From the NCBI GenBank assembly GCA_027621915.1, contig JAQCAD010000032.1:1-36797 (forward strand): a stretch of 36,797 bases of DNA, written 5' to 3'. Both the position numbers and the translations under genes were made by a program. The notes under the pieces were generated by a model. That model did no database searches. It was not told the DNA's origin and saw only the letters and a program-made list of their open reading frames with translations. The DNA comes from Pseudomonadota bacterium. GTDB taxonomy: Bacteria; Pseudomonadota; Gammaproteobacteria; Steroidobacterales; Woeseiaceae. Below, one piece after another: positions 1,465 through 26,474 of the stretch (positions are counted from its first letter, which is position 1; every line of letters begins with the position of its first letter).

Positions 1465-3522
1465 ATGTGCAAACCAATTAAAGTTGCAAACAGGCTGCTG
1501 CTTCCAGCGCTCGTCCTCTTCAGCGGAGTGGCACCAATTCAGGCACAGGAGCCTGAAGACAGCGCGCTCGACGAGATCGTGGTGACGGCGACCCGTCGGG
1601 AAGGGGCCGTGCGGGACGTCGCCAGATCTATTTCCGTCATTGGAAAAGAACGGATTCAGCTTGGTACGCAGCAACTCGGTCTCGACGAGGCATTGGCCGG
1701 CGTTCCCGGATTGTATATGCAAAATCGCTACAATTTTGCTCAGGATCTTCGCATCTCTTTGAGAGGTTTTGGGGCTCGATCGGGTTTCGGGATCAGGGGT
1801 ATCAAAGTATTGGTGGATGGCATTCCGGAGACGTTGCCGGATGGCCAGGCGGGCGTGGACAGCATCGATATGGGTTCGGCACAAAGTATCGAAGTATTGC
1901 GCGGCCCCGCGTCATCGCTCTACGGAAACGCAGCTGGTGGTGTGATCGCTATTTCAAGTGAACTGGGTAATGAGGATCCGTATATTGAAGGTCGGTTGGC
2001 GGCGGGTGAATTCGGTTATCAACAATACCAGCTGAAGTCTGGTGGCAAGTGGGGCGACTCAGATTACCTCGTCAATGTTTCCCGGACAGAGCTCGATGGT
2101 TATCGCGATCAGTCTAATGCGCGCGGAACTTTGCTAAACACCAAGTTTGGTATCCCGTTGAACGAGACGGATGAACTGATTCTGTCATTCAACCACACGG
2201 ATCAGCCGGTTGCGGATGACGCCGGTGGCATCAATGCGGCCCAGGCAGCCAGCGCGCCATCGTCGGCCAGAGACCTGAACATATCGTTTGATGCCGGCGA
2301 AGCGCTGTCGCAGCAACGTGCCGGAATCGTCTATGAGCGGGATCGTCCATCCGGAAACCTGACGCTTCGCAACTACTACGTCTGGAGGGATTTCGTTAAC
2401 CTTTTGCCGTTCACTAGTGGTGGGGCGGTTGACCTGCAGCGGTTCTACTACGGCTTTGGTGCGCAGTACAGTCTCGGAGACATGCTGCCGGACGATCTGA
2501 ACCTGTCGTTTGGAGTTGACATCGATCGCCAGGATGACGATCGAAAACGTTTTGACAACAATAACGGTGTGCTTGGCGCCATGACGTTTGATCAGAACGA
2601 AAGGGTAGAAAGTTCTGGTGTATATGCGCAGGGGCAATATGAAATAGATGACAGATGGTCGTTACTTGCCGGTCTGCGCTATGACGAATTGACGTACGAC
2701 GTTGGCGATCGCTTTCTGGTTGATGGCGATGACTCGGGAAAACTCGACTTCAATGAAGTGAGCCCGTCATTCGGTATCAATTACCGGACGGAGAATGGCG
2801 TTTTGTTTGCGTCATACAGCAGTTCTTTCGAAACACCGACTACCACTGAGCTTGCGAATCCGGATGCCAGCGGTGGATTCAATCCCGCACTCAACCCGCA
2901 ACTCGCGGACAATATCGAAGTTGGGTTCAAGAGAAGTTCAGGCAGACTTTATTACGAAGTTGCTCTTTTCACGATCGACCTGAAGGATGAACTGATCCCG
3001 TTTGAACTCGCCGCATTTCCGGGACGCACGTTCTATTCTAATGCCGGTACTTCGACACGAGACGGCGTCGAAACCGCAATCAGTTGGGCAAATGAAAGTG
3101 GTCTTCGCGTGGATGCTTCTTTCACCTGGTCCGATTTCAGCTTTGATAGCTTCATAGACGATAATGGAACCGACTTCAGTGGTAATCAACTACCTGGACT
3201 GCCGAAGCAATTCGGTTACCTCGGGCTAACATATAACTCACAAAAAGGCCTGTCAGGCACGATCGAGGCTGTCTATTCCGGTGACCTGTACGCGAATAAC
3301 GCGAATATCGCGAAAGTGCCGGGTTATACAGTTGGAAATATGCGACTGGCATATGAATTCACGCGTGATCGCTGGGTATTTCGACCTTATGTTGGCATCA
3401 ACAACTTATTTGATGAGAATTACAACAGCAACATACGAATTAATGCCTTTGGTGGTCGCTATTTTGAGCCGGCACCGCCGAGGAATTTTTATGCGGGAAT
3501 CGTCGTAAAATTCAGCCGCTGA
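1465..3522 (+). CDS. TonB-dependent outer-membrane receptor (685 aa)
   Basis: The protein begins with a Sec signal peptide (positive CKPIK, hydrophobic core, cut near PIQAQ). A classic TonB box, DEIVVTATRR, follows at about residues 36-45. The plug domain contains SLRGFGARSGFGIRG and the conserved SIEVLRGPASSLYGNAAGG stretch. The remainder is a beta-barrel rich in alternating aromatic residues. The C-terminus ends KFSR rather than in a terminal aromatic. Length and plug motifs fit the ferric-siderophore/FecA-like group (COG1629/COG4772), which moves a ligand across the outer membrane with energy from TonB-ExbBD. The ligand is unknown. The ATG at 1465 has only a weak ribosome site. A lipoprotein amidohydrolase starts 31 bases after the stop and is probably co-transcribed. 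Confidence 0.92.
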   Translation: MCKPIKVANRLLLPALVLFSGVAPIQAQEPEDSALDEIVVTATRREGAVRDVARSISVIGKERIQLGTQQLGLDEALAGVPGLYMQNRYNFAQDLRISLRGFGARSGFGIRGIKVLVDGIPETLPDGQAGVDSIDMGSAQSIEVLRGPASSLYGNAAGGVIAISSELGNEDPYIEGRLAAGEFGYQQYQLKSGGKWGDSDYLVNVSRTELDGYRDQSNARGTLLNTKFGIPLNETDELILSFNHTDQPVADDAGGINAAQAASAPSSARDLNISFDAGEALSQQRAGIVYERDRPSGNLTLRNYYVWRDFVNLLPFTSGGAVDLQRFYYGFGAQYSLGDMLPDDLNLSFGVDIDRQDDDRKRFDNNNGVLGAMTFDQNERVESSGVYAQGQYEIDDRWSLLAGLRYDELTYDVGDRFLVDGDDSGKLDFNEVSPSFGINYRTENGVLFASYSSSFETPTTTELANPDASGGFNPALNPQLADNIEVGFKRSSGRLYYEVALFTIDLKDELIPFELAAFPGRTFYSNAGTSTRDGVETAISWANESGLRVDASFTWSDFSFDSFIDDNGTDFSGNQLPGLPKQFGYLGLTYNSQKGLSGTIEAVYSGDLYANNANIAKVPGYTVGNMRLAYEFTRDRWVFRPYVGINNLFDENYNSNIRINAFGGRYFEPAPPRNFYAGIVVKFSR

Positions 3523-3553
3523 AAATTCGCTTGAACGGACCTGGAGGAGATTG

Positions 3554-5287
3554 ATGCGTTTAGTATCTGTAGCAATTGTCGCGATAGTTCTGGCTGGATG
3601 TGGCAGATCGGTTGACCTGTCTGGCGGCCACCCGCTTGCGGATCTCGTATTAACCAACGGCAACGTGATTACCGTTGACAGCAATAACCCAAACGCTGAG
3701 GCGATCGCAATTATCGGGGATCGGATCGTTGCTCTTGGCAGTGCCAATGCCATCGCTGCCTACGTAAGTGATGATACGGAAGTTATTGATTTACAGGGAC
3801 AAACGGCAATTCCCGGTCTTATTGAGGGACACGGCCACTACACCAGCTTCGGTGGTTCTTTGTTGATACTCGACTTTCGCCATGCCAGGAGCTTTGCCGA
3901 AATCGTATCGATGGTTGAAGTCGCTGCGAAAAATACACCACCCGGTGAGTGGATTGTCGGGCGAGGCTGGCACCAGGACAAGTGGGAGCTTAAAGAGGCA
4001 GTTCTCGTAGAAGGACTGCCGGTTCACGAAACACTGAGCGCCGTCACTCCGGATCATCCGGCAATGCTTATTCATACCAGCGGGCACGGCGTCTTCGTTA
4101 ACCGAAAAGCAATGACTTTGGTCGAAATGACGAACGATACCGCGGCGCCAGAAGGTGGCGAGATCGTCCGTGACGAAAAGGGCAACGCCACAGGAATGAT
4201 GCGCGAGTCGGCGCAGGACATTTTTCGCGAGGCATTTTCGGGACATCAGGGCCGGCGACCGGCGGGCGTTGCAGATGACGAATTACGTCGCATGGTAATG
4301 CTCGCTGGTGAAGCAGCCCTGCGGCACGGCATAACCTCATTTCAAGATCTTGGCACGAGCTTTGCGGAGGTCGACCTACTAAAAAAGATGGCCGATGAGG
4401 GCAATTTACCAGTACGCCTCTGGATGGCCTTTGAAGAGCAGGCGGCCGATATGGAAGGACGCCTTGCCGACTACAGAATGGTTGGCTACGGGAACAACTT
4501 TCTCACCGTTCGCGCGATAGGGGAAAAGGTTCTCGATGGCGCTCTGGGAACCCATGGCGGCTGGTTGCTCGAACCATACTCTGACCTGCCTCGCAGTCAC
4601 GGGCTAAATGTTGTTCCCATTGAAGAAATTGAACATTCCGCAAGACTTGCGATTGAATATGATTATCAACTCGCGATTCAGGGTATTGGCGATCGTGCAT
4701 ACCGCGAATTACTGAACATATACGAGGCGGAATTCGCGAAACACGCGGATACGACGGATTTGCGCTGGCGCATAGAACACGCACAGGTGATTCATCCGGA
4801 CGATGTCGAACGTACCGTTGCACTGGGTGTCATACCGGCGGTGCAAGGAATCTTCGCTTGTTCCGACGGACCATGGGTTGTGGATCGCCTCGGCGAGGAG
4901 CGCACGCTTGAACGAGGATACATATTCAACACGCTCGCAGAAGCTGGATTGGTACCGACGAACGGCACTGACCCGCCGGTTGATGAGATCGACCCGATCG
5001 GCAGCTTTCATTGTTCCGTGACCCGCCAATTACCGGATGGATCGAAATTCCAGCCGCAGGAGGTTTACTCGCGGGAGCGAGCGCTTTATTCCTACACGAT
5101 GGGAAATGCAATTGCCGCATTTGAGGAAGACGTCAAAGGATCTTTGACAGTCGGCAAACTGGCTGACATTACGGTGCTAAGCCAGGATCTCTTGACAGTT
5201 CCGGACGACAATATAATGGATACGAAAATCGTGATGACGATTGTCGGCGGTAAAATTCGTTATAGAAACGGTGAAATCGTTCCATAG
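3554..5287 (+). CDS. Lipoprotein metal-dependent amidohydrolase, YtcJ-like (amidohydrolase family 3)
   Basis: The start is the ATG at 3554, because GGAGGAG at 3543-3549 sits at the right distance; the in-frame TTG at 3551 would be too close. The N-terminus MRLVSVAIVAIVLAGCGRS is a lipoprotein signal with a LAGC lipobox (Cys16), so the 577-aa enzyme is probably anchored outside the cytoplasm. Family features are the LVLTNGNVITVD beta-sandwich entry, the His-x-His pair at H93 and H95 (EGHGHY instead of the usual DSHxH), the HAQ motif in RIEHAQVIHPDD, NGTDPPVDEIDP near the C-terminus, and the final GKLADITVL. The usual HAIGDRA motif reads QGIGDRA here, so one expected metal-ligand histidine is glutamine. 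Family members hydrolyse N-acyl or formamide-type bonds; the substrate here is unknown. The gene lies behind a TonB receptor, suggesting it processes the imported ligand. Confidence 0.85.
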   Translation: MRLVSVAIVAIVLAGCGRSVDLSGGHPLADLVLTNGNVITVDSNNPNAEAIAIIGDRIVALGSANAIAAYVSDDTEVIDLQGQTAIPGLIEGHGHYTSFGGSLLILDFRHARSFAEIVSMVEVAAKNTPPGEWIVGRGWHQDKWELKEAVLVEGLPVHETLSAVTPDHPAMLIHTSGHGVFVNRKAMTLVEMTNDTAAPEGGEIVRDEKGNATGMMRESAQDIFREAFSGHQGRRPAGVADDELRRMVMLAGEAALRHGITSFQDLGTSFAEVDLLKKMADEGNLPVRLWMAFEEQAADMEGRLADYRMVGYGNNFLTVRAIGEKVLDGALGTHGGWLLEPYSDLPRSHGLNVVPIEEIEHSARLAIEYDYQLAIQGIGDRAYRELLNIYEAEFAKHADTTDLRWRIEHAQVIHPDDVERTVALGVIPAVQGIFACSDGPWVVDRLGEERTLERGYIFNTLAEAGLVPTNGTDPPVDEIDPIGSFHCSVTRQLPDGSKFQPQEVYSRERALYSYTMGNAIAAFEEDVKGSLTVGKLADITVLSQDLLTVPDDNIMDTKIVMTIVGGKIRYRNGEIVP

Positions 5288-5399: not shown

Positions 5400-5891
5400 T
5401 TAGTTGGGCCGCGCCAGTACGACCTCGATTTCGATAAAAACACCGGGCCGCGCAAGTCCTGCAATCTGAATCGCGGAGCGGGCAGGTTTGTTCGGTTGTG
5501 CGTCCGTGCCAAAGTGTTTCGTATAGGCTTTCATAAAACCGCCAAAGTCCATACGACCGCCCATGTCCGGATCGCCGACAAGAAACACTGTCATCTTGAC
5601 GACGTCGCCGAAACTGAGGCCGAGATTCTTGAGTGATGCTTCCATAATCTCGAATACGCTGTTCGATTGCGTTTCAGTGTCGCCAAAGTATTCGCGGCTG
5701 GAGGGATCCGCATTCGGATTCGCCGGGCCCGGGAGCGTGCCGCTGTGATAAACCAGCGTCGTGCCTGCGCTTACTTCGACCGCCTGCGCAATAGGAAACG
5801 GTGAGTTATTCGGTAAGGGGTGTCGGGTTACGTCAGCATTCGCGCACGCACTGCCGAGTATAAGTAGACCGATGAATGTGGCACTTTTCAT
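5400..5891 (-). CDS. Exported RidA family protein (YjgF/YER057c/UK114), probable imine/enamine deaminase
   Basis: This 163-aa protein carries a Sec signal peptide ending near ANA|DV (residues 17-19) before a complete RidA domain. Conserved family features are YHSGTLPG, NVFEIMEASLKNLG-like helix residues, VVKMTVFLV, and the C-terminal PARSAIQIAGLARPG...IEIEVVLA block. Arg138 in PARS corresponds to the arginine that holds the carboxylate of the substrate in RidA enzymes. Known RidA proteins hydrolyse reactive imines and enamines to carbonyl compounds and ammonia, usually in the cytoplasm; export is unusual. The gene is the last of the operon, 15 bp after the cytochrome c gene and just before a terminator. 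Its position beside a flavin amine oxidase fits hydrolysis of the imine that enzyme makes. Function in this pathway is inference. Confidence 0.88.
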   Translation of the reverse strand: MKSATFIGLLILGSACANADVTRHPLPNNSPFPIAQAVEVSAGTTLVYHSGTLPGPANPNADPSSREYFGDTETQSNSVFEIMEASLKNLGLSFGDVVKMTVFLVGDPDMGGRMDFGGFMKAYTKHFGTDAQPNKPARSAIQIAGLARPGVFIEIEVVLARPN

Positions 5892-5906
5892 ATTTTAGAA
5901 CCTCTA

Positions 5907-6539
5907 TTATTTCCGCAATGTTGAAATATAACTGACGACGTCCATAATTGCCTGCTCGTCTGTCAAAAGCTGCGTTGACGCTCGCATCTGCATACCATAA
6001 ATGTCGCCGGGATGGCTGCCTCGGATTCCGCTTTTGAAATTCTTCAGCTGTGTGACAAGGTACCAGTCGTCAACGGTTGTCAGCATCGGGCTTCCGAATG
6101 CCGGGTCGCCTTCGGCCGATTGGCCGTGACAGGCACCGCACGTGGTGAATAAGACTTTGCCCTTATCAATGTCACCGACAACGGATGACGCTGGTAACGC
6201 GGAACGGGTAGCGGACACGTACTCCGCCGCCTGGTTAATCTGTTCATCCGACAAGGCGGCGGCCATTGGTCGCATTTCCATTCCAACAACATCACCCTCG
6301 TGAGTACCACGCCAGCCTTTTTTGAATGACTGGAGTTGATTTTCAATGTACCAGGACTCCATGCCACTCAATCGAGGCGCTTTCAGTATAGGATTGCCCA
6401 TCAATTGGACACCGTGGCACGTACTGCAGTAAGCAAGGTCATCAGTGGGTATAGGCAATTCATTCTCGGCGAAGACAGGTGCGCCGCTAACGCACAGCAG
6501 TATGATCGCCAAGAGCCAGCACCTGATTTGATTTTGCAT
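5907..6539 (-). CDS. Secreted diheme cytochrome c (cytochrome c4-like)
   Basis: I take the ATG at 6539, which gives a normal signal peptide (MQNQIRCWLLAIILLCVSGA..VFA|E); the longer frame from 6605 would overlap the upstream gene. The mature 210-aa precursor has two heme-binding motifs, CSTCH (Cys38-His42) and CGACH (Cys134-His138). The two halves are clearly an internal duplication: WYIENQLQSFKKGWRG and WYLVTQLKNFKSGIRG, each followed by GDxxGMxMR, whose methionines are candidate axial ligands. This is the plan of class I diheme cytochromes. It probably carries electrons in the periplasm. The gene starts only 4 bp after the flavin amine oxidase, so it is the likely electron acceptor of that enzyme, as a cytochrome c is for nicotine oxidoreductase NicA2. 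Confidence 0.9.
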   Translation of the reverse strand: MQNQIRCWLLAIILLCVSGAPVFAENELPIPTDDLAYCSTCHGVQLMGNPILKAPRLSGMESWYIENQLQSFKKGWRGTHEGDVVGMEMRPMAAALSDEQINQAAEYVSATRSALPASSVVGDIDKGKVLFTTCGACHGQSAEGDPAFGSPMLTTVDDWYLVTQLKNFKSGIRGSHPGDIYGMQMRASTQLLTDEQAIMDVVSYISTLRK

Positions 6540-6543
6540 ATTT

Positions 6544-8124
6544 CTAACCCTTCCCTGACCTTGCGGACGCAGCGCGGACACGCTTATCCAGTTCAAGCAA
6601 TGCATATTCTGCCGAGCCGAAAGCGCCTTCCTGCCAGCTTGAGTGATAACTAATCTGATCGCCGATCATAAAGTGTCGACCACCGGCCGGTTGCTGCAAC
6701 AACTTGTAATACTTCTCGCGAATTTCAGGCGACCAGTCGGCGCCGCATCCCATCATGTGATTCATGCGGCCCCAGGGCACGCTGATACCGGCTTCGATGT
6801 AGCCCGAATACCCCTTGTGAATTTTGTCGCCGCACTTCCCGGCGAATTCAATACGGGCCGCGGGGGACATTCTCTCGAAGAACGCGGATTGCCTGAAAAA
6901 CGCGTAAGCACCGAGCACGACGCCTTTCTTGCCGTGAATACCATGCGATGGATACCAGATCTGGTTTATTTTTTGACTGGTGTTGGTTATGCCACCGTAG
7001 ATGCCCTCGTTTTCCCAGAATCGCTCCTTCATCTGCAGGCCAATTTTGAAAAAATTGCCAGGCTGAAGCGAAGCGAGACCCTTTCGATATTCGGCAGGAA
7101 GGTTGTTCGGAATGCCAGACATGAAATGGGACGGAATACTGTTGAAGCAATAATCAACGCTTAGTTTCTCTCGTTCGCCCTTGTGGTTGTAGACGACATC
7201 GACCCCATTTTCCTTCAGGGAAATAGACTGCACCTGGGCATTTGTCGTAATGGGGCTCGAGATATTTCGGACCAGCCCTTTGATAAGGCCGTCCATGCCG
7301 CCTGTAACTTCCATCAACGGCTCGCCCCAATCCGGGTTTTCAGACAACGTCATGCCCCTTTCCCAGAATTTACTGTCGAGCAGTGCGCTAAAATCCATCG
7401 GCGTGTAATGTTCTGCCGGCGTGATGAATCCACCGGACTTGTAACCTGCTCGAATCGTGCCTTTGTAAATGCCATTCGGATCGAGATCGCCATAAGCCGT
7501 TGCGAATTGCAGCATACGTTCCCTGTCTTCCGCCGAAAGTGGCTGATCGAACGCATTCTTATCGACCGCTTTATGCAGCAATTCCGACATGAAGCCTCGC
7601 GCGTCTGCGGTATATCGGCCAACCCTTACCGGTTTGTCGTCGAACTTGCCTTCTTCGTGAGTGTAGGCCGGACGGCTCATATTCGCCTTGACCTGCAACG
7701 GCACCTTCAATTCCTTGCAGTAATGAAGTACACGTCGGTGATGTCCCGGAATTCGCGCGGGGCCGCAGTTAAAATACAGATCCGGATCGTCGTCAAAATT
7801 GCACACCTGGGGCTGACCCAGTTCGTCGATGATGTCACCATGTCGCACCGTCAGGTTGCGACCGCCGAGGCGCTTTGACGCCTCGATGACAGTCACATCA
7901 TAGCCAGCACGTTCAAGTTCGTAAGCGACTGTCAGGCCGGCGATCCCCGCGCCAAGCACGGCGACTTTTTTTCCATTTCTGCCGGCTTTCTGCAAATCGA
8001 GTTGTGCAACCGGACCGGTATCCTGCATCAGCCCGAGTGCCATGCTGGTCTTGTATACGGCAGTGGAGCCGCCTGCGGCTCCAACGAGGTTCAGAAAACG
8101 TCGGCGAGACAGGTGCTTTTTCAT
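6544..8124 (-). CDS. Tat-exported flavin monoamine oxidase family protein
   Basis: The start at 8124 is chosen because it gives a twin-arginine signal, MKKHLSRRRFLNLVGAAGGS, followed by a hydrophobic stretch; the frame stays open further upstream to 8229 without a better start. The 526-aa product has the FAD-binding Rossmann motif VAVLGAGIAGLTVAYELERAG (GAGIAG at residues 58-63, Glu81 closing the dinucleotide fold) and RLGGRN at 85-90. The C-terminal FAD contact region includes GDQISYHSSWQEGAFGSA from residue 488. This is the plan of the Amino_oxidase family (monoamine, L-amino-acid and polyamine oxidases). Such enzymes turn an amine into an imine. Export folded through Tat with FAD bound, plus the cytochrome c gene 4 bp downstream, suggests a periplasmic dehydrogenase that does not use oxygen. 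Substrate unknown. Confidence 0.88.
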   Translation of the reverse strand: MKKHLSRRRFLNLVGAAGGSTAVYKTSMALGLMQDTGPVAQLDLQKAGRNGKKVAVLGAGIAGLTVAYELERAGYDVTVIEASKRLGGRNLTVRHGDIIDELGQPQVCNFDDDPDLYFNCGPARIPGHHRRVLHYCKELKVPLQVKANMSRPAYTHEEGKFDDKPVRVGRYTADARGFMSELLHKAVDKNAFDQPLSAEDRERMLQFATAYGDLDPNGIYKGTIRAGYKSGGFITPAEHYTPMDFSALLDSKFWERGMTLSENPDWGEPLMEVTGGMDGLIKGLVRNISSPITTNAQVQSISLKENGVDVVYNHKGEREKLSVDYCFNSIPSHFMSGIPNNLPAEYRKGLASLQPGNFFKIGLQMKERFWENEGIYGGITNTSQKINQIWYPSHGIHGKKGVVLGAYAFFRQSAFFERMSPAARIEFAGKCGDKIHKGYSGYIEAGISVPWGRMNHMMGCGADWSPEIREKYYKLLQQPAGGRHFMIGDQISYHSSWQEGAFGSAEYALLELDKRVRAASARSGKG

Positions 8125-8235
8125 ATGGTGTCTTTCGATACTGCGAATTTGATGAATCAGAAGGGTTTGTAACTGTGGCCCGACATTAGTTCCATGCAGG
8201 CGCGTTGGCCCTGCAATGACAAACGCCATAACAGG

Positions 8236-8586
8236 CTAATTGAGCGTTTCGCTCAGCAGGAAAAGATCCGTCAGCAGCGCTCTCAGGTGAATTGATGCGT
8301 TCAAGTTATCCACCAGCTCAGAGCTTATTTTTCCTTGCGACATCACGAGCGAGATTGCAGCCATCGACTTTTTTGCGTCATCGACGACAACAGGCGAAAA
8401 CGAACCGTCGTCCGTGGCCAGCAACTCGACAATGCCGGACGCAGCTTCAGACATTCCAGCCAGCGTAGTACGCACTTCGGATCCGCCCGCACCCTGGTCA
8501 GACTCACGACCTTGCGCCGCGTAGGCGAGCAAGAACTCGTAGCCAGCCTCGATAACTTCAATGTAGTCGTCCAGAGAATTACTCAC
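8236..8586 (-). CDS. Small helical protein of unknown function within the oxidoreductase operon
   Basis: This 116-aa frame begins with GTG at 8586 and ends at 8236. I do not recognise a family. The protein is acidic, has no signal peptide, no membrane segment and no cysteine, and is predicted by eye to be mostly alpha-helical (for example SLDDYIEVIEAGYEFLLAYAAQG and ELVDNLNASIHLRALLTDLFLLSETLN regions, given here by their ends at residues 4-26 and 90-116). It sits 45 bp after the cytochrome b gene and 111 bp before the amine oxidase, on the same strand. A role as assembly factor or small partner of the exported enzymes is possible, but nothing in the sequence proves it. No good ribosome site is visible before the GTG. 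Confidence 0.6.
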   Translation of the reverse strand: MSNSLDDYIEVIEAGYEFLLAYAAQGRESDQGAGGSEVRTTLAGMSEAASGIVELLATDDGSFSPVVVDDAKKSMAAISLVMSQGKISSELVDNLNASIHLRALLTDLFLLSETLN

Positions 8587-8631
8587 GTTGTCTAGTCCGC
8601 GTCGTCAGGTTGAAAGTCGGTAGTGCTGGGG

Positions 8632-9387
8632 TCAGGAAGATTCGTCAGGCGTCCAGCGTTGCGGATCGTGATTCGCGGCGAGCTCGTCTCTTGAAATCCA
8701 ACCTTTAATCATCGATCGGGTATAAAACAATTTCTCAGGCCGGAGTGCGAAATAAATGTGCAGTGAAATCACGCCGATCAACGCGAGCGTAGTAATCCCG
8801 TGCACAAAGAAAACGACACCAAGCATCGCTTCCGAAAGCGCGTTGGTGCGTTGCCACCACGGCGTATCAATTTGCAGGAACATGACAATGCCGCTGGCGA
8901 TCACCAGCAGCGTCAGGACAGTAACAACCAGGTGCAGGCCTTTTTGGGCCACCGAATATTTTCCAGGCTTGACGTTGTCAATTGGTTCTTTCAGATCTTT
9001 GCCGCTTATCCACATTTCAGAGCCGGATTTGAAGAAAACAGAGCGAATGATATGAAAAACGACCACCACGGTTAGTGCGATTCCGGCGATCCAGTGAAGT
9101 TCGAGCCAGGCAAATTCGATTCCAATAATGGGCAAGACACCAGTGACCAACAGAGCGAACATACTGATAGCCATGATCCAGTGGTACGCACGATCGATCG
9201 AATCGTGTCTTTTTACGCGTTCACCACTACTTGACGGCCTTTCGCCACGTTTCCGCATCGCCTCGTACACAGCATGGAGTGCGATTGCGACAAGTGCCGC
9301 GACGACGACCAGCCAGAGCAAATCCCAGGAGACTCCCCGGATTACCTCTCGTCCCCAAACATCATTTCTATAAGTTGCGAATTCCAC
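8632..9387 (-). CDS. Cytochrome b membrane subunit (formate dehydrogenase gamma / cytochrome b561-like)
   Basis: The 251-aa protein has about five membrane segments at residues 22-42, 70-90, 97-117, 148-170 and 188-212. Histidines in or next to these segments (H69, H98, H112, H152, H196, H210) can bind b-type hemes. The segment RAYHWIMAISMFALLVTG is characteristic of the FdnI/HyaC-type cytochrome b family, which passes electrons between periplasmic dehydrogenases and the quinone pool. The gene starts 4 bp after the FAD subunit of the molybdenum enzyme. It therefore probably connects that enzyme, and perhaps the amine oxidase branch, to the respiratory chain. PaoABC of E. coli has no such membrane partner, so this would be an added respiratory link. 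This link is inference from gene order. Confidence 0.85.
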   Translation of the reverse strand: MEFATYRNDVWGREVIRGVSWDLLWLVVVAALVAIALHAVYEAMRKRGERPSSSGERVKRHDSIDRAYHWIMAISMFALLVTGVLPIIGIEFAWLELHWIAGIALTVVVVFHIIRSVFFKSGSEMWISGKDLKEPIDNVKPGKYSVAQKGLHLVVTVLTLLVIASGIVMFLQIDTPWWQRTNALSEAMLGVVFFVHGITTLALIGVISLHIYFALRPEKLFYTRSMIKGWISRDELAANHDPQRWTPDESS

Positions 9388-9391
9388 TGCT

Positions 9392-10384
9392 CTAACCCCG
9401 CATCGCGCGACGGACGAGATTTTCCATCAACGGCAGTTTGAAATGATTGTAATTTAAAGGTATTGCACCGGCACTGGCGAGCGGTGCAATAGCATCAGCA
9501 CTCGCCTCGGATAGCGAATTTCCTCGGGCAGCACTTTCAACATTCTTTAAGCGGTGTGGAGTACATGCAACACCGCCACATACGAAACGGCTCTCCGCGA
9601 TCGAATCACCTTCCAGTCGCATGGCGACCGCGATGCTGACAAGGGCAAAATCCCAAACGTCGCGATCGGCAACTTTCTCAAAATAGAATCTTTGGCCGGC
9701 CCACTTTGATGGTATCCGAACAGCCGTCAGGATTTCGCCCGGCTCAAGTGCGGTCATCTGTGTGATATGTGTGGCAGGACCGACAAAAAAGTCTTCTGCA
9801 GCGATACTTCGTACGCCCGACGCGCTGGCGACAACCATCATGGCTTCGAGCGCTACCATTGCGGTGGCCGTATCCGATGGGCTCACTGCGACGCAACGAC
9901 TCGCGCCCAGGACGGCATGTTCCCGATTCATTGACTCGGGTCCGTCGGCATAGCAAAGGTTGCCGCCGGCACGATAACAAGCAAGTCCACGGCGGTAATA
10001 CCAGCAGCGAGTGTCCTGTGACAGGTTTCCGCCAAGCGTGCCAACATTCCGGATCTGCGGGCTTGCCACCCTGCCTGCGGCCTGAGCGAGCAGGCTGAAA
10101 TCACGATTGATGCGCTCATCGCGAATAATTTCGCGCAGCGTCGTCGTTGCTCCAATCTCGATCCCGTCATCGGTCGTGCGAATTCCGCGCAACGAATCGA
10201 TTCCACTCAGGTCGATCATGGCCTGCGGATTCTTGGCGCGGTCTTTCAGCCACCCGTAGGTGTCCTGCCCGCCGCCGAGTACCCAGCCGCCGTCGCCATA
10301 CCGTTCGGCGAGGCTTAGTGCGTCGTCCAGTTCCACCGGCTGGTAGAGCTGGATGTCTGGCATTACATCGAAAGAAGCCATCAT
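9392..10384 (-). CDS. FAD-binding subunit of a xanthine-dehydrogenase-family molybdenum enzyme, with extra [4Fe-4S] loop (PaoB-like)
   Basis: The 330-aa protein has the FAD_binding_5 fold: LGGGQDTYGWLKDRA near residue 37, then IRNVGTLGGNLSQ at 111-123, the flavin loop. After it an insertion holds four cysteines, C127 (RCWYY), C136 (LACYR), C144 (NLCYA) and C164 (ASRCVAV), in the arrangement that binds a fourth iron-sulfur cluster in the PaoB and 4-hydroxybenzoyl-CoA reductase beta subunits. The PaoB-like spacing NREHAVLGASRC...SPSDTATAMVALEA supports PaoB rather than CoxM. The second ATG at 10381 is equally possible as the start because TGAGG lies a few bases before. It lies 5 bp after the large subunit. 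It lacks its own signal and would be carried through Tat with the small subunit. Confidence 0.9.
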   Translation of the reverse strand: MMASFDVMPDIQLYQPVELDDALSLAERYGDGGWVLGGGQDTYGWLKDRAKNPQAMIDLSGIDSLRGIRTTDDGIEIGATTTLREIIRDERINRDFSLLAQAAGRVASPQIRNVGTLGGNLSQDTRCWYYRRGLACYRAGGNLCYADGPESMNREHAVLGASRCVAVSPSDTATAMVALEAMMVVASASGVRSIAAEDFFVGPATHITQMTALEPGEILTAVRIPSKWAGQRFYFEKVADRDVWDFALVSIAVAMRLEGDSIAESRFVCGGVACTPHRLKNVESAARGNSLSEASADAIAPLASAGAIPLNYNHFKLPLMENLVRRAMRG

Positions 10385-10389
10385 TAACC

Positions 10390-12801
10390 TCAGAAGTTAT
10401 TTGTTTGTAATGGCAGGAATGACTGGTCGCGACCGGTGACATGATTGACGATCATGTCGGGGCTGACCGGAGTTCTGCCGAATATGTGGCCATCAAGCGC
10501 ATCTGATATCGCCGATGTCAGTGCCGCGACCGAACAGCCCATCGCCGGCTCGCCAATGCCGCGCGCGCCGAACGGATTTTGCGGGTCCGCAATATCGACG
10601 GCGCCAGTTCTGGTTACAGAAGGCACATCGAGATAAGTCGGGATGCCGCACTGGTGATAGCCGACGTTTGCCGGCAAGCCGTATTGGGGGTCGTATACAT
10701 GGCGTTCCAACGCCGCCATGCCCATTCCCCAGACGGCGCCTCCCTTCATCTGCTGGGCAAGGCCAGCCGGGAACAACACCGTGCCGCACTCAGCAATACC
10801 GACATAATCAAGAATCTCGTACTTGCCGGTTTCTAGGTCGAGCTCAATTTCGACAAACGCACATGCGAGACCCGGGATGGTGCCTTCCTGCGGCAGATTG
10901 TCCTTAGCGACGCCGACCAGACCGCTGCCGGCAAGATTTTGCACCGATCGCTGTGTGATCTCGTTGATATCGTCAGGGTAGGTCTGTCCGCTATATTCGC
11001 CGCCGAGCTGAATGGCTCGCGCTGCGATTGCACCGTACGACATTCCCTGGGCCGCGTTTTCGGTAAGGAACACGCGTTGACCGTCGATATCGTAGTCATC
11101 CGGTTCACCGCCCATCGTATCCGCTGCGATAAGTTTCATCTTGCGCAAAGCGTCCATAGCAGCGACATAGTTGGTACGTGTATGCGCAAAAGTTGAGACA
11201 CTACCGGCCTGGTAGGAATTCCACGGCAGGTTTTTCTCGGAATGGCCGTTGTGTATTTCACAATTTTCCCAGTCACATTTCAGGACTTCGGCCGCGGCGC
11301 GGGATGTTGATGCAAAGGAATACGTACCGAGGTTTCCGACACCCGTATGAATATGCAGCTTGCCATCCGGCGTGATCCTGATCAGGCCATCAAAGCCGGT
11401 CGCGCCGGCCGAGTGGTATCCCTGTCCTATGCCCAGGCCGCGCACTTTTGAGCCATTCTTTTTCGGTTGCTGGCGACGGTTTTCCCAGTCGAACATCTCG
11501 GCACCCATGGTTAATGCTTCTTCGAGATATGCGCTGGTGACGCCACGTTGTTCTTCGTAGACCGTCGTCGCATTGTTTGCTGCATTGATCTTGCGAACGG
11601 CCAGCGGGTCGAGCCCGAGTTCTCTTGCCGCCTTGTCCATGATCGGCGCCATGACCGCCGCAATCTGGTTCTGACCAGGACCACGCTGGGCTCCTCGCGG
11701 CGTCGTATTCGTCAGTACCGGCAATCCGCGAAAACGCATTGCGTCCGGATCGTAAACCAGAGAGATCGCACCACCTGCAGAGGAAGCATCGCCACCGGTT
11801 GCATTCGCACCGATATCTTCGATGATAAATACATCTGTTGCGGTTGCCTTGCCGTTTTCGGCAAATCCCATGCGAATCCAGCCCTGGAATCCGACACGCG
11901 CCGATCCCATGTAGTACTCCTGTTCGCCGGTGACCCGAAGCTGAACAGGTCGTCCGATTTTTTTGGAAAAATATCCTGGCAACGCGGCGATCGGGTAGGC
12001 GCCGATTTTAGAGCCGAAACCACCGCCGGTATTTTCGCTTATCAATACGAGATCTTTCGTTTCGATTCCCAGGAGCCGGGCAAGCCCCGGCATCCAGAAG
12101 GTATGACTTTGAGCTGATCCATGTACGTAACAGGTGCCATTCTGCCAATAGGCCATCGCGGTCCGCGGCTCCATGCTCATGTGTGCATAGCCCGTCGTGA
12201 CAAAATTTTCTTCGATGATCACCTTGGCATCGGCGAATCCCTTGTCGAGATCGCCATATTTCCATTCAGCCGCAAACTCTCCGGTGGGCTCTTTGCCGGC
12301 CCTGAAGTCATCAATTTGTTCCTTGGTCCATTTTACTGTGCGAAATCCTGATCCTTCTCTGGATCGGGCATACACGTTGCCCTCTTCCCGGGCATCCGGG
12401 CCCCCGGCGATGAGGCTATCCAGCGGATCAGTAACAAAAGGCAGCGGCTCGATTGTTATTTTAATCGCGGCGAGTGCATCTTCAGCCGTTTTCTCGTCAA
12501 CAGCGGCTACAGCAAGAATCGGATCGCCGATGAATGCCGGAGAGTTTGTCAGGATCGCCCCGTTCGGCGCTTCAACCGCCGGTACATCGTCTGCGGTGAG
12601 AATGCCAATCACGCCGTCCATCGCTTCAGCAGCGGAGGCATCGATATGAGTAACTTTGCCGTGAGCCATTGGGCTCGTATACATCCGTGCGAAAACCATG
12701 CCGTCGACTCGAAAGTCTTCCGCATATTTGGCTTTGCCGGTTACCTTGCCCATGACATCCGGCGGTGTGAAGTCCTTGCCAACCAATTTGTAATCGTTCA
12801 T
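10390..12801 (-). CDS. Molybdopterin-binding large subunit, aldehyde oxidase/xanthine dehydrogenase family (PaoC-like)
   Basis: At 803 aa it has family-typical length and domains: N-terminal GKVTGKAKYAEDFRVDGMVFA (alpha/beta hammerhead), the cofactor-binding NTGGGFGSKIGAYPIAAL region, RGPGQNQ, and the C-terminal GARGIGEPAMG, whose Glu (about residue 751) is the catalytic base of the family. The CO dehydrogenase active-site signature with cysteine is not seen, so it is not CoxL. No signal peptide is present; its partner small subunit has the Tat signal, as for PaoABC. The ATG overlaps the stop of the small-subunit gene by 4 bp (ATGA), so translation is coupled. Known relatives oxidise aldehydes to acids or hydroxylate N-heterocycles. 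The substrate here is inferred as an aldehyde from its neighbours. A PaoD/XdhC-type insertion chaperone is not in the window. Confidence 0.92.
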   Translation of the reverse strand: MNDYKLVGKDFTPPDVMGKVTGKAKYAEDFRVDGMVFARMYTSPMAHGKVTHIDASAAEAMDGVIGILTADDVPAVEAPNGAILTNSPAFIGDPILAVAAVDEKTAEDALAAIKITIEPLPFVTDPLDSLIAGGPDAREEGNVYARSREGSGFRTVKWTKEQIDDFRAGKEPTGEFAAEWKYGDLDKGFADAKVIIEENFVTTGYAHMSMEPRTAMAYWQNGTCYVHGSAQSHTFWMPGLARLLGIETKDLVLISENTGGGFGSKIGAYPIAALPGYFSKKIGRPVQLRVTGEQEYYMGSARVGFQGWIRMGFAENGKATATDVFIIEDIGANATGGDASSAGGAISLVYDPDAMRFRGLPVLTNTTPRGAQRGPGQNQIAAVMAPIMDKAARELGLDPLAVRKINAANNATTVYEEQRGVTSAYLEEALTMGAEMFDWENRRQQPKKNGSKVRGLGIGQGYHSAGATGFDGLIRITPDGKLHIHTGVGNLGTYSFASTSRAAAEVLKCDWENCEIHNGHSEKNLPWNSYQAGSVSTFAHTRTNYVAAMDALRKMKLIAADTMGGEPDDYDIDGQRVFLTENAAQGMSYGAIAARAIQLGGEYSGQTYPDDINEITQRSVQNLAGSGLVGVAKDNLPQEGTIPGLACAFVEIELDLETGKYEILDYVGIAECGTVLFPAGLAQQMKGGAVWGMGMAALERHVYDPQYGLPANVGYHQCGIPTYLDVPSVTRTGAVDIADPQNPFGARGIGEPAMGCSVAALTSAISDALDGHIFGRTPVSPDMIVNHVTGRDQSFLPLQTNNF

Positions 12802-13385
12802 GAGCTTTGCCCCGATGCGCGCATCACACCATTGAGATAGTGGTCATACGCGCCACAACGGCAAAGGTTGCCGGACATCGCCTGACGAGCCTCTTCGCGG
12901 GTTGGCGTCGGATTCTCATTGAGTAATGCGACGGCCGACATGACCTGGCCGGGGGTGCAAAAGCCACACTGGGGACTCAGTTCGTCAATAAAAGCCTGCT
13001 GCACCGGATGCAGCGTGCCATCAGCGGCCTGTAGACCTTCGACAGTCTGAACTGCCCGGCTTCGAACGCTATGAGTCAACGTTGAGCAGGAGTAATTGGT
13101 AATGCCATCGATCAACACTGTGCAGGTCCCGCATTCGCCGCGATTGCAACTAATTTTGGTGCCGGTCAGGCTGAGTTTGTAACGAAGCGTGTGCGCCAGC
13201 ATTTCCTGCGGCGCCACATCGACGCGTCGCGTCTGCCCGTTGATGTTGAGAGAGATCAGGCGTTCAACAGCACCGCGCGGACGATCCTGCGCGAGTGCTG
13301 AATGGAAACCTGTGCTAGATGCAGCGGCGACGCTTGAAGCAATAACTGCCTTGATGAAGCGTCGGCGTGAAAGTTGGGGATTCAC
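12798..13385 (-). CDS. Tat-exported [2Fe-2S] subunit of the molybdenum hydroxylase (PaoA-like)
   Basis: The 195-aa protein starts with GTG at 13385. Its N-terminus MNPQLSRRRFIKAVIASSVA is a twin-arginine signal with a hydrophobic region and an ALAQ cleavage area at residues 30-33. The plant-type ferredoxin cluster ligands are C80, C85, C88 and C100; the second cluster ligands are C140, C143, C175 and C177 (CGFC...CRC). All eight cysteines are present. This subunit passes electrons from the molybdenum site to the FAD subunit, and its Tat signal should export the folded trimer. It is the first gene of the operon, 177 bp downstream of the beta-propeller lipoprotein gene. AGGCAGG upstream is a reasonable ribosome site. 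Confidence 0.94.
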   Translation of the reverse strand: MNPQLSRRRFIKAVIASSVAAASSTGFHSALAQDRPRGAVERLISLNINGQTRRVDVAPQEMLAHTLRYKLSLTGTKISCNRGECGTCTVLIDGITNYSCSTLTHSVRSRAVQTVEGLQAADGTLHPVQQAFIDELSPQCGFCTPGQVMSAVALLNENPTPTREEARQAMSGNLCRCGAYDHYLNGVMRASGQSS

Positions 13386-13562: not shown

Positions 13563-14744
13563 CTATTTCTTGTCCGATGGCCAGGGTGTGCCCTGGTCCA
13601 TGACCGTGACCGGTCCCATGCCCTTGTAAGCGAACTTCTGTACGCGTTTACCCTCATAGGTCTCCGTCGTGTAGATGTTGCCTTTTGAATCGGTAACCAG
13701 TCCGTGAACCGCAAAGAACTGCCCGGGATTGCGGCCACCAGCGCCGAAATTGGTCAGGATCTCGAGTGTCTCGCGTTCAATAATAAAGATCTTGCGATTG
13801 GTGCCGTCGGCCAGGTAAATGAACGTCTGCGCCGGATCTGGCGAGAAAGAAATATCCCAGACGGAACCATCGCCAAGGCTGTTTGGCTTAACAAAGATCT
13901 CACGAACAAATGTGCCGTCTTTCGTGAAGACCTGTAACCGATTATTGACGCGGTCACACACATAGAGTAAGCCATCATTAGAAGGCTGTGCACAATGGAC
14001 CGGGTTGCGAAACTGCTGTGCAGGCTCCCCGCCTGGAACGAACGGACCAAGGTCAGTATCGTCCGGCTTATTGCCATACGCGCCCCAGTAACGTTTCATT
14101 GCGCCGGTGTCCATATCGAGTACAGCAACGCGTTTGTTGCGATATCCGTCAGCGACGAATGCCTCGTTCGCTTCGGCATCAATCGACACTTCCGCGACGC
14201 TGCCGAAATTGACCATGCTACTGCTGTCGGTATCAGCGCCCGGCGTACCGTATTCGGCGAGAAATTTACCGTCCCGAGTGAACTTCAATATGTGTGAATC
14301 GCTGCGGCCGTTGCCGCCAATCCAGACATTGTCTTTGTGATCGATCGTGATGCCATGATTCGACGACGGCCATGTGTAGCCTTCACCCGGGCCGCCCCAG
14401 TGAGCAACGAGGTTTCCGTCCGGATCAAATTCCAGAACGTTTGGTGCAGGTATGCAACAGTCGGCCTTGACCGGATCCGTAGCTGCACCGATCTCCGTTC
14501 GTTCGTTGAACGTATCGCGACGATGAATAATGTAAATGTGATCACGGGAATCAACGCCGATGCCGATTGTTGATCCGAGAATCCATTGGTTCGGCAGTGG
14601 TTTCGGCCAGAACGGATCCACTTCGAACATCGGTGCCTGTTTGCCTTGCGCCTGTGCGGCGCCGTCGAGTGCTTTTTCCGCGCAACCCAATGCCACCAGG
14701 ACTGCAACCACGGCTCCCGCTGTGTACATGTTTTTCTTCGTCAT
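13563..14744 (-). CDS. NHL-repeat beta-propeller lipoprotein
   Basis: The 393-aa product begins MTKKNMYTAGAVVAVLVALGC, a signal peptide ending in an ALGC lipobox, so membrane anchoring is likely although the -3 residue is not the standard leucine. The body has repeated motifs of an NHL six-bladed propeller: GIGVDSRDHIYIIHR, VLEFDPDGNLVAHWG, GITIDHKDNVWIGG, ILKFTRDGKFLAEYG, RVAVLDMDTG, LQVFTKDGTFVRE and GLVTDSKGNIYTTE. Propellers of this sort bind or cleave substrates or hold protein complexes; some are alpha-amidating lyase relatives. A good ribosome site (GGGGGAG then GGAAG) precedes the ATG at 14744. It lies upstream of the molybdenum/flavin operon on the same strand, so it may help the same pathway. 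Confidence 0.82.
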   Translation of the reverse strand: MTKKNMYTAGAVVAVLVALGCAEKALDGAAQAQGKQAPMFEVDPFWPKPLPNQWILGSTIGIGVDSRDHIYIIHRRDTFNERTEIGAATDPVKADCCIPAPNVLEFDPDGNLVAHWGGPGEGYTWPSSNHGITIDHKDNVWIGGNGRSDSHILKFTRDGKFLAEYGTPGADTDSSSMVNFGSVAEVSIDAEANEAFVADGYRNKRVAVLDMDTGAMKRYWGAYGNKPDDTDLGPFVPGGEPAQQFRNPVHCAQPSNDGLLYVCDRVNNRLQVFTKDGTFVREIFVKPNSLGDGSVWDISFSPDPAQTFIYLADGTNRKIFIIERETLEILTNFGAGGRNPGQFFAVHGLVTDSKGNIYTTETYEGKRVQKFAYKGMGPVTVMDQGTPWPSDKK

Positions 14745-24571: not shown

Positions 24572-24644
24572 TGCTTAATCTCTCGCTTGTATTCCCGAGA
24601 TGGCGGCGGCAAGCTTTGAATCCTACCCGGGAAGACTAAACGAT

Positions 24645-25592
24645 ATGGACTCGACAAACGAATCTCAACTTGCATCTGCCGTCCTTATGATCCGGCCTGT
24701 CAGGTTCGAGAGCAACCCCCATACGGCTGCATCGAATAAATTCCAGGGCCGAAATCCGTCGAAGCCAGAGCAGCAGCAGATCGACGCGGTCACGGAGTTT
24801 GATGGACTTCGAGCCGTGCTTGAATCGAATGGAATTCAGGTCATTGCAATCGAAGACACCGAAGACCCGCACACGCCTGACTCGATTTTTCCCAACAACT
24901 GGGTCAGTTTTCACGCAGATGGAACCGTCGTGCTTTACCCGATGGAGGCACCGAACCGCAGGACGGAGCGACGTTCCGACATCATCGAAACGCTGTCGGA
25001 CGAATACGGCTTCCAGGTGCGGAACGTCCTCGATTTATCGACCCATGAGGACGAAAGTCAGTATCTCGAGGGCACCGGCAGTCTTGTGCTGGATCGCGTG
25101 AACCGAATCGCTTACGCCTGCCTTTCATCTCGCACGCATCTGGATGCACTCGGTGATTTCGCCCAGCGAATGGACTACAAGGTGATCGCATTTGACGCTG
25201 TCGATCGCGATGGCGAGGCGATTTACCATACCAATGTCCTGATGAATGTCGGCGAGGAGCTCGCTGTAATCTGCGACGAGGCATTAGTTCGGCCAGACCA
25301 AAGAACGGCGGTTGTGCGAAGCCTTGAAGACACCGGCCACGAAGTAATTTCGCTCAGTTTCGACCAGTTGGACGCATTTGCCGGCAACATGCTTGAGCTA
25401 AGGTCAGCTTCCGGCGAGCGGCTGATTGCGATGTCAGGACAGGCAAGGGCATCACTCAGCAAATCGCAACTCGACAGAATTCTGAACCATGCGAAAATCA
25501 TCAGCGCACCAATCGACCGCATCGAGAGCTCTGCCGGGGGCAGCGTTCGCTGTATGCTTGCAGAAGTACACTTGCCGCGCATACGTTCCTGA
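24645..25592 (+). CDS. ctlX: Amidinotransferase-fold hydrolase, citrulline-utilisation CtlX-like
   Basis: I take ATG at 24645 (GGGAAGA upstream) rather than the ATG at 24600, which lacks a ribosome site. The 315-aa protein shows guanidino-hydrolase motifs: DSIFPNNWVSFHADG from residue 79, YLEGTGSLVLDR from about 140, IYHTNVLMNVG with His195, and SAGGSVRCMLAEVHL with the catalytic Cys303 near the end. These are the pentein-fold (amidinotransferase) Cys-His-acid residues. Family knowledge: CtlX-type proteins belong to arginine/citrulline catabolism in some gammaproteobacteria. A second pentein enzyme follows after 51 bp. The gene symbol is from overall resemblance and not proven. Confidence 0.8.
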   Translation: MDSTNESQLASAVLMIRPVRFESNPHTAASNKFQGRNPSKPEQQQIDAVTEFDGLRAVLESNGIQVIAIEDTEDPHTPDSIFPNNWVSFHADGTVVLYPMEAPNRRTERRSDIIETLSDEYGFQVRNVLDLSTHEDESQYLEGTGSLVLDRVNRIAYACLSSRTHLDALGDFAQRMDYKVIAFDAVDRDGEAIYHTNVLMNVGEELAVICDEALVRPDQRTAVVRSLEDTGHEVISLSFDQLDAFAGNMLELRSASGERLIAMSGQARASLSKSQLDRILNHAKIISAPIDRIESSAGGSVRCMLAEVHLPRIRS

Positions 25593-25643
25593 TCTGCCGG
25601 AATCTTTTACAACAACTCTACGAAAGCCAGGGAGCTCCGAAGA

Positions 25644-26474
25644 ATGGGCATCATGCGAGACAAAATTCTGATGTGCCCGCCGGATCATTTTACGGTCGAG
25701 TACGTTATCAACCCGTGGATGGCGGGGCACGAAAGCTCGCTGGACATTGAGCTTGCCAAGGTACAGTGGCTTCATCTGCGCGACTCAATTGCCGAATATG
25801 CCGATATCGTCGAGATGCATCCCGAGCCCGATTTGCCCGACATGGTATTTACGGCGAATGCCGGGGCCGTCTATGGAAACAAGGCGATAGCGAGCCATTT
25901 CATGCCGAAAGAGCGGCGTCCGGAGGAGCAATATTTCAAAAAATGGTTTCGCGAAAACGGTTTCGAATTATTGGACCTCGACGAGAAAATAGGATTTGAG
26001 GGGGCCGGCGATTGCCTTCGCGATCGCGGTGGTCCATGGCTCTGGACAGGTTACGGGTTTCGCACGGAAATCGAAGCACACAAGGAAATTCAGGAATTCT
26101 TTGATATCGAGCTTATCTCAATAAAGCTCGTCGACTCGCGTTTCTATCATATAGACACCTGCTTCTGCCCATTGACTGATGGCTTCCTGATGTACCATCC
26201 GCCCGCGTTCGACTTTGAATCCAGAATGGCTATTGAAAGCAGGATTCCGTCTCACAAAAGGATCGTTGTCGATACGAGGGACGCAGGAAATTTTGCCTGC
26301 AATGCGGTCAACGTGGGCGATATGGTATTTCTGAACAAGGCGTCCGATCCGTTGAAAGCAAGACTGATGCTTGCGGGGTTCAAGGTTCGTGAGGTGAATT
26401 TATCGGAATTTCTGAAAGCTGGTGGTAGTGCCAAATGCCTGACGCTTAAACTTGTAGAGCCCGTATTAGCCTAG
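25644..26474 (+). CDS. Dimethylarginine dimethylaminohydrolase-like amidinotransferase-fold enzyme
   Basis: The 276-aa protein belongs to the pentein superfamily. Visible motifs are DMVFTANAGAVYGNKAI (residues 66-82), GFEGAGDCLRD with Glu119 and Asp123, FYHIDTCFCPL with His169, and GGSAKCLTLKL with the catalytic Cys265. These match the DDAH/arginine deiminase group, which splits a guanidino or methylated guanidino group to citrulline plus an amine or ammonia. The ATG at 25644 has GGGAGC about eight bases upstream. Together with the CtlX-like gene before it, it suggests use or detoxification of arginine or methylarginines. An M61 peptidase starts 15 bp after it. Confidence 0.85.
   Translation: MGIMRDKILMCPPDHFTVEYVINPWMAGHESSLDIELAKVQWLHLRDSIAEYADIVEMHPEPDLPDMVFTANAGAVYGNKAIASHFMPKERRPEEQYFKKWFRENGFELLDLDEKIGFEGAGDCLRDRGGPWLWTGYGFRTEIEAHKEIQEFFDIELISIKLVDSRFYHIDTCFCPLTDGFLMYHPPAFDFESRMAIESRIPSHKRIVVDTRDAGNFACNAVNVGDMVFLNKASDPLKARLMLAGFKVREVNLSEFLKAGGSAKCLTLKLVEPVLA

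Follow-up and report, generated by a model that had tools for sequence, protein, structure and literature searches.

The lao-cccA-ridA cluster of Gluconacetobacter diazotrophicus encodes an L-amino acid oxidase, a cytochrome c and RidA, and two insertion mutants in lao produced no indole-3-acetic acid and low indolepyruvate from tryptophan (PMC5053998, accessible part). Flavin enzymes that are exported by Tat and lie next to a Sec-exported cytochrome c are further represented by NicA2, Pnao and their relatives, and many such enzymes beside a cytochrome c are cytochrome c dehydrogenases (PMC12224317, accessible part). A three-subunit molybdenum (Mo) enzyme, PaoABC(D), is found in E. coli. The locus described here brings relatives of these systems together in one block of eight genes, located in a window of 36,797 nucleotides (the whole stretch of DNA that was analysed; contig C36 of a 3.56-Mb genome, completeness 95%) from a Woeseia-like bacterium. 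An earlier note on this DNA read the block as a single periplasmic pathway from amine to acid. In what follows, MoA, MoB and MoC are the 2Fe-2S, flavin adenine dinucleotide (FAD) and molybdopterin subunits of the Mo enzyme, FAO is the flavin enzyme, and sml is the small gene at 8236-8586.

We consider it rather probable that the block consists of two periplasmic modules that became joined once in an ancestor of the Woeseiaceae type: an L-amino acid:cytochrome c dehydrogenase (module A) and a Mo enzyme that is probably linked to quinone (module B). The Tat-exported flavoenzyme would oxidise L-amino acids to 2-imino acids and hand the electrons on to the exported diheme cytochrome c encoded next to it, and the exported RidA would turn the imino acid into a 2-oxo acid and ammonium. 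The Tat-exported, three-subunit Mo hydroxylase would oxidise an aldehyde or an N-heterocycle, its electrons reaching the quinone pool through a cytochrome b561-type subunit, with the small helical protein serving as a cytoplasmic assembly factor and module A being transcribed, in most relatives, from a promoter of its own. Module A most likely belongs to the lao-cccA-ridA kind, and module B is most likely a PaoABC-like variant with a cytochrome b and a new partner.

The flavoenzyme, its cytochrome c and the exported RidA

The closest solved structure to the flavin enzyme is the L-amino acid oxidase of Rhodococcus opacus (2jae, 3.2e-65), to which it is related over the whole catalytic domain (residues 51-518). 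Next in rank come mainly L-amino acid oxidases, ancestral ones included, and further down the match of many amine oxidases is confined to the FAD-binding start. The Rhodococcus enzyme is an oxygen-using oxidase, whereas the window enzyme probably uses cytochrome c. The carboxylate residues of the former, which we take to be Arg84 and Tyr371 (the chain index being one lower), align with Arg125 and Tyr408 of the latter (numbered on the translation of 6544-8127). Among homologues the Arg is kept in 22/22 at 60% identity or more, in 30/30 at 40-60% (one gap) and in 26/27 below 40%; the corresponding counts for the Tyr are 20/20 (two gaps), 30/30 (one gap) and 25/27. Such an Arg and Tyr bind the carboxylate of the substrate, as the accessible parts of PMC9331233 and PMC9814856 describe. 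The label of amine oxidase given in the earlier note is thus not borne out by the closest relative and the kept Arg and Tyr. Judged from its residues, the flavin enzyme is of the L-amino-acid-oxidase type, acting most likely on L-amino acids, and 2-imino acids are therefore the expected product.

A Tat leader on the flavin enzyme and a Sec leader on the neighbouring cytochrome c are both readable from the translations. Two CxxCH motifs are present in 40 of 41 homologues of the cytochrome c, the exception (L064) showing one. A Tat leader and an operon-linked cytochrome c are good predictors of a cytochrome-c-using dehydrogenase according to the accessible part of PMC12224317, and this rule supports the proposed route from the flavin enzyme to cytochrome c, which is probably its acceptor. 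The likeness to NicA2, Pnao and their relatives lies in the same combination of Tat flavin enzyme and adjacent Sec-exported cytochrome c; NicA2 and Pnao, however, act on nicotine and pseudooxynicotine in the same part of that paper, whereas the window enzyme is of the L-amino-acid-oxidase type and has an exported RidA alongside. The likeness to lao-cccA-ridA is closer in content, both combining a Tat enzyme of the L-amino-acid-oxidase type with genes for a cytochrome c and RidA next to it: in module A the carboxylate Arg and Tyr are present, and the cytochrome c and ridA genes are adjacent on the same strand. The difference is that Mo genes lie beside module A in the window, whereas none is named for the published cluster in the accessible part of PMC5053998, a text that does not take up the export of RidA and was also the sole match of a literature search combining lao, RidA, cytochrome c and operon. 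Module A lies near TonB receptors in other loci too (L054, L061, L062). Among plasmids, 71 records had FAO matches, every one below 60% identity.

The best match of the window RidA in the PDB is the Rid family protein PFL1385 (8.5e-35); a literature search for PFL1385/PSPTO3006 returned no paper bearing those names. At 49.7 bits, RidA falls below the NCBIfam cut-off for Rid detoxifying hydrolases (106.25) and is assignable just to the Rid family. The Arg of its PARS motif aligns with the PAR Arg of solved Rid proteins and is presumably the Arg105/107 discussed for other Rid proteins. In the accessible part of PMC4433059, the Rid Arg contacts carboxylates and is needed for imine hydrolysis, and S. 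enterica RidA hydrolyses imines formed by L-amino acid oxidase. This carboxylate-contacting Arg appears to be retained in the window RidA, supporting the earlier proposal that RidA acts on the imine of the flavin enzyme. The product that their sequences lead one to expect from the pair should, however, be a 2-oxo acid and ammonia rather than an aldehyde, and with a 2-oxo acid the proposed step into the Mo enzyme breaks; oxidation of a 2-oxo acid is not what one would expect of a PaoABC-like enzyme. Most RidA relatives carry the PARS motif and, judged by eye, a signal-like leader. Since such leaders are common to most clusters of the lao-cccA-ridA type, an exported RidA is not peculiar to the joined block.

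The molybdenum half and its small partner

The cofactor residues of the Mo half are strongly conserved. MoB aligns most closely with the medium subunit of aldehyde oxidase and with PaoB, and its four 4Fe-4S Cys are intact in 34/34 relatives, as are the eight Cys of the 2Fe-2S subunit in 34/34. The catalytic Glu of MoC is found in 41/42 relatives (one gap) and the active-site Arg in 42/42. His61, 69, 98, 112, 152, 196 and 210 of the cytochrome b are each invariant (27/27). The likeness to E. coli PaoABC(D) consists of the three subunits, the Tat leader on the 2Fe-2S subunit and the four 4Fe-4S Cys of the FAD subunit, and to this extent the description of the enzyme as PaoABC-like stands. MoC, however, gets much the same score against 6-hydroxypseudooxynicotine dehydrogenase, 4-hydroxybenzoyl-CoA reductase, aldehyde oxidase and PaoC, and reaches 209.4 bits against the NCBIfam PaoC profile, far under its cut-off of 1180. 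There is no XdhC/PaoD-type gene on contig C36, and the matches to XdhC_C (PF13478) in the genome are confined to contigs C79 and C45. Membership in PaoABC is rejected on these two grounds. The window set further adds a cytochrome b561 and a small helical protein, and, going by its genes, module B is probably a Mo enzyme linked to the quinone pool via cytochrome b. The cytochrome b and the exported RidA are both extra to the Pao system, as the earlier note had it, but RidA goes with the published lao-cccA-ridA type. No paper with the term b561 was among the matches listed for a literature search on Pao and cytochrome b561.

In other families, MoA, MoC and MoB occur in varying order, followed in several loci by the cytochrome b and the small gene. 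At three loci of another family (L154, L159, L160), an exported protein of the metallo-beta-lactamase fold comes after the Mo module, in place of FAO and RidA. A second MoC (57%) without adjoining MoA or MoB is present in L146 (8431-10902; genome G000, contig C61) and in L153, near amidohydrolase and ABC-type transporter genes.

The small protein of 116 residues has no Pfam or NCBIfam match at 0.001. It is matched at 0.01 in 28 of the 147 genomes of the order, 26 of these matches being strong, and gave no match in the remaining 397 genomes drawn from the phylum. MoC, at E <= 1e-100, likewise occurs in 28 of the 147, and 26/26 genomes with a strong small-protein match also have MoC (p = 7e-27, with relatedness not corrected). 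The small gene belongs with the molybdenum half. AlphaFold models the protein as a confident helical bundle (pLDDT 92.7) with no PDB match at E <= 0.001, the matches to helical bundles, FliS included, being all insignificant. It is a probable cytoplasmic assembly or maturation factor.

Distribution, intergenic element and gene neighbourhood

The flavin enzyme was found at 47 loci, and 12 of these have genes of the Mo half beside FAO, with FAO identities of 61-75% (82% in L084, a fragment of 95 residues). Two further loci (L048 and L079) are contig-edge pieces from the genomes of L084 and L076. Among the remaining 33, the 31 with at least 3 kb of upstream sequence, including L059, have no window-type Mo genes. 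FAO, cytochrome c and RidA occur together without a window-type Mo half at 17 loci (one of these, L074, has less than 1 kb of upstream sequence, and L059 has a distant Mo enzyme nearby), and the genera with module A alone are Paraglaciecola, Alteromonas, Psychrosphaera, Pseudocolwellia, Peristeroidobacter and Aestuariicella. One of the 17 is L041 (70%), whose RidA is a distant one (34%), and L049 (65%) has FAO and cytochrome c and no window-type Mo half. A single clade of the Woeseiaceae type accounts for every joined block found; the conserved block in unrelated genera that the earlier note named as possible support was not seen, and, with Mo genes beside FAO at 12 of the 47 loci, one operon conserved across unrelated genera is rejected. 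Within the order, an FAO match (E <= 1e-60) adjoins MoC in just 4 of the 28 genomes with MoC, several of the other 24 being fragmented. A class-wide draw (369 genomes, strict thresholds) had FAO in the window's genome only and MoC there and in one other, and shows rarity, little more. No paper naming Woeseiaceae was among the matches listed for a literature search on Woeseiaceae and oxidase terms.

In a MoC tree of 45 loci and the window, hand-chosen from 78 extracted, the 22 rows of the clade group together (100/100), and the closest named records are Woeseiaceae metagenome-assembled genomes (L084, L040). L166 and L171 fall in one place and L167-L169 in another, within FAO-bearing groups and with moderate to full support; the sequence of L169 ends before the FAO position. 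By parsimony, we infer that the modules were joined once and that FAO and cytochrome c were lost at least twice. Linkage to MoC was counted by eye with the window excluded: HupE-like genes are linked in 14/14 clade loci with at least 3 kb upstream of MoC, CstA in 10/11 with at least 5 kb, TonB in 10/10 with at least 8 kb downstream, and FAO in 12/16 with at least 3 kb downstream. As these unrelated flanks are linked as well as or better than FAO, linkage is weak evidence for a joint pathway, and as proof of function it is rejected.

The gap before FAO harbors a conserved element, with GGAACT and TACMAA-like boxes shared among relatives and differing bases between them. The strict pattern occurs in 10 of 14 block loci (0.002 in shuffles), and the loose pattern, with the spacing fixed at 16, in 13 of 14 (mean 0.018 in mononucleotide shuffles); a search with free spacing found 10 loci, all with that same spacing. 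These 14 exclude L155 and L171, whose flavin enzymes, at 24% and 34%, fall outside the window type, and also L076 and L084, in which FAO is cut and which yet carry the element. The loose pattern was found in 0/35 FAO upstreams outside the block and was absent upstream of NHL (14), MoA (18), RidA (15), TonB (12) and amidohydrolase (8) genes. Because the pattern was derived from the block loci themselves, it is the absence elsewhere and the constant spacing that are informative. The window copy (8166-8193) is the sole exact match in its genome for both patterns tried, and a wider regulon is rejected, with 8 one-mismatch matches against 6 in a reversed control. Generic scans gave 3 sigma-70 matches against 7.6 in shuffles and 11 terminator matches against 11.3. 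The second box differs from what we take RpoE-type sites to be. According to the accessible part of PMC8103513, E. coli RpoE has GGAACTT as its -35 box. Module A thus probably has its own putative promoter and transcription start in most relatives, and the conserved element suggests separate transcripts for the two halves, an outcome that the earlier note counted against its pathway. Four loci with longer gaps between sml and FAO (L042, L046, L047, L151) have a second motif, GCCTAATAC, in common, upstream of the promoter-like element.

The coordinates of the block and its flanks are collected in Table 1. The eight genes share one strand over 5400-13385, with gaps, from the end of RidA, of 15, 4, 111, 45, 4 and 5 bp and then one overlap of 4 bp; this arrangement, as first described, agrees with the list of open reading frames and the Pfam matches. 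The export leaders reported earlier are likewise readable in the translations, where they were judged by eye as Tat-type (the 2Fe-2S subunit with SRRRFIK and the flavin enzyme with SRRRFLN) or Sec-like. The mechanically called reading frames begin further upstream for the flavin enzyme (8229) and the cytochrome c (6605), and their starts were set at 8124 and 6539 because of the leaders.

Table 1. Features of the block and its surroundings in the window, with the basis of each assignment
Feature	Position	Strand	Basis
Rid-family imine hydrolase (RidA-type), exported, with Sec-like leader and PARS-motif Arg	5400..5891	-	Pfam PF01042
Diheme cytochrome c with Sec-like leader; likely acceptor of electrons from flavin enzyme	5907..6539	-	PF00034/PF13442
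Tat-exported L-amino-acid-oxidase-type flavoenzyme, probable L-amino acid:cytochrome c dehydrogenase	6544..8124	-	PF01593
Promoter-like element GGAACT-N16-TACAAA, ECF-sigma-like -35, between halves	8166..8193	-	Pattern searches
116-residue helical protein without export leader, probable assembly/maturation factor	8236..8586	-	Distribution, AlphaFold
Cytochrome b561-type membrane subunit, probable quinone-side partner of Mo enzyme	8632..9387	-	PF01292, hydrophobic segments
FAD subunit with 4Fe-4S loop	9392..10384	-	PF00941/PF03450
Molybdopterin subunit, xanthine oxidase family	10390..12801	-	PF02738/PF20256/PF01315
2Fe-2S subunit, Tat leader	12798..13385	-	PF01799/PF00111
Exported NHL beta-propeller, peptidyl-hydroxyglycine-lyase-like, conserved neighbour upstream of Mo genes	13563..14744	-	Structure and distribution
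Lipoprotein-type amidohydrolase (Amidohydro_3), convergent; in some relatives	3551..5287	+	Family match; 7/13 clade loci with at least 5 kb downstream of MoC
TonB-dependent-receptor-like reading frame, convergent	1465..3522	+	Named by eye from translation; 10/10 clade loci with at least 8 kb downstream of MoC

Beyond the eight genes, the locus thus includes the conserved element within the 111-bp gap and an NHL propeller gene upstream on the same strand. The propeller gene lies upstream of MoA in those clade loci that have enough sequence; another family (f6) has it close to MoC at 4 loci. Among solved structures, peptidyl-hydroxyglycine lyase (PAL; 3fvz, Foldseek 8.3e-19, Z 33.3) comes first, essentially tied with TRIM-type NHL domains (Z 32.8). 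Compared with the residues that we take, with their roles, to form the PAL active site, an Arg, a His, a Tyr and a further Arg align, one His is off by one position, and one residue lies outside the alignment. It is speculation that the propeller, as a lyase releasing glyoxylate, would supply the Mo enzyme with an aldehyde. Elsewhere in the window, two genes of the dimethylarginine-hydrolase type lie side by side (24600-26474, +; PF19420), and a HipA-like gene and an AbiEi/AbiEii-type toxin-antitoxin pair are found at the contig end (32778-36524).

Alternatives and biological meaning

Several observations weigh against two separate modules joined once. Halves that are mostly apart, an outcome that the earlier note named as refuting its pathway, are seen outside one family but not inside it: with the genome sets read by hand and relatedness not removed, window-clade MoC (at least 75% identity) occurs in 22 of 107 genomes, FAO in 16 and both in 14 (p = 3e-10), on one contig in 12; of the rest, G532, G593 and G527 are cut by contig ends and G526 likewise, from coordinates matching L076. 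Across the order, 6/8 genomes with a window-type FAO also have MoC (p = 6e-4, under the same provisos). At L059 (5434-11070), a different, two-gene Mo enzyme, 34-38% identical to that of the window, is encoded on the opposite strand some 1.5 kb from module A. At L175, where the element is missing, the small gene overlaps FAO, so that co-transcription is likely there. At L171 (1600-4592; genome G533), the position behind the Mo half is occupied by a different enzyme of the L-amino-acid-oxidase type; it retains the Arg and Tyr and shares 79% identity with a paralogue on contig C26 of the window's genome. RidA follows sml directly, with no FAO or cytochrome c, in L166 (11954-12832), L167 (6310-7238) and L168 (12860-13772), loci that fall in two separate branches of the MoC tree; its retention beside the Mo half links RidA to module B. 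Finally, the Lys termed conserved in the accessible part of PMC9331233 is, at the position read from our alignment, Lys in 71/79 homologues and Arg in 7. Two small proteins, YceI-like by eye, are also encoded at the G533 site, one on each strand, and both have a signal-like leader.

These points bear unequally on the alternatives. A single chain, in which a primary amine is oxidised to an imine, converted by RidA to an aldehyde and oxidised to an acid by the Mo enzyme, would accord with the gene order and orientation, the exported enzymes, the likeness of MoB to aldehyde oxidase and PaoB, and the significant co-occurrence in one family. It is nevertheless very improbable, as the flavin enzyme bears the carboxylate residues of L-amino acid oxidases, the corresponding Rid Arg contacts carboxylate in other Rid proteins (PMC4433059, accessible part), so that RidA too fits imino acids, and the halves are apart outside the family. 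The amine-to-aldehyde-to-acid chemistry of the earlier note is therefore not borne out, an L-amino-acid-oxidase-type enzyme implying a 2-oxo acid, and its joint pathway is left unsupported by the separation of the halves and the promoter-like element between them. The chain could be rescued by an aldehyde made downstream of an L-amino acid and its 2-oxo acid, whether by decarboxylation (indolepyruvate to indoleacetaldehyde) or as glyoxylate from glycine or from the PAL-like propeller. The strain with lao-cccA-ridA makes indole-3-acetic acid via indolepyruvate (PMC5053998, accessible part), and the propeller adjoins the Mo genes; we regard this version as unlikely all the same, since the block genes include no decarboxylase, NHL domains with other functions match the propeller about as well as PAL does, one zinc His of PAL does not align exactly, and the Mo half exists without module A.

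The loci with RidA and no FAO raise instead the possibility that RidA is a partner of the Mo enzyme, acting on an imine or enamine derived from an N-heterocycle, the amino acid oxidase being an optional addition. Their two places in the MoC tree and the retention of the PARS Arg in L166, L167 and L168 favour this idea; no FAO match at E <= 1e-130 was found elsewhere in their genomes. Their RidA, however, falls among RidA sequences linked to the oxidase in a tree with weak support (37 loci and the window, of 47 extracted, with two ranges of overlapping loci and identical copies left out) and could be a remnant, the sister locus L171 shows no RidA, and the Mo modules of other families (L154-L165) have no RidA match; we therefore hold this partnership to be doubtful. 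A broader proposal, which we put forward tentatively as a minority possibility, is that of a membrane-anchored periplasmic Mo hydroxylase of an undescribed type, with cytochrome b561 and the small protein, that works with the exported RidA in Woeseiaceae and recruits L-amino-acid oxidases of different subfamilies to one site, deamination and oxidation feeding cytochrome c and quinone. The RidA loci without FAO, the G533 site and the co-occurrence leave room for a real cooperation of the halves with RidA as the link. The reading of two modules joined once is preferred over these alternatives, and it is possible that both modules have a common physiological role in periplasmic nutrient scavenging.

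If this reading is correct, bacteria of the Woeseiaceae type would gain ammonium and respiratory electrons from periplasmic L-amino acids, and a Mo enzyme family with its own uncharacterised partner protein would stand beside the amino acid module. The small protein and the cytochrome b define a Mo module that is directly testable, and the RidA kept without its oxidase would provide a natural experiment on the function of exported RidA.

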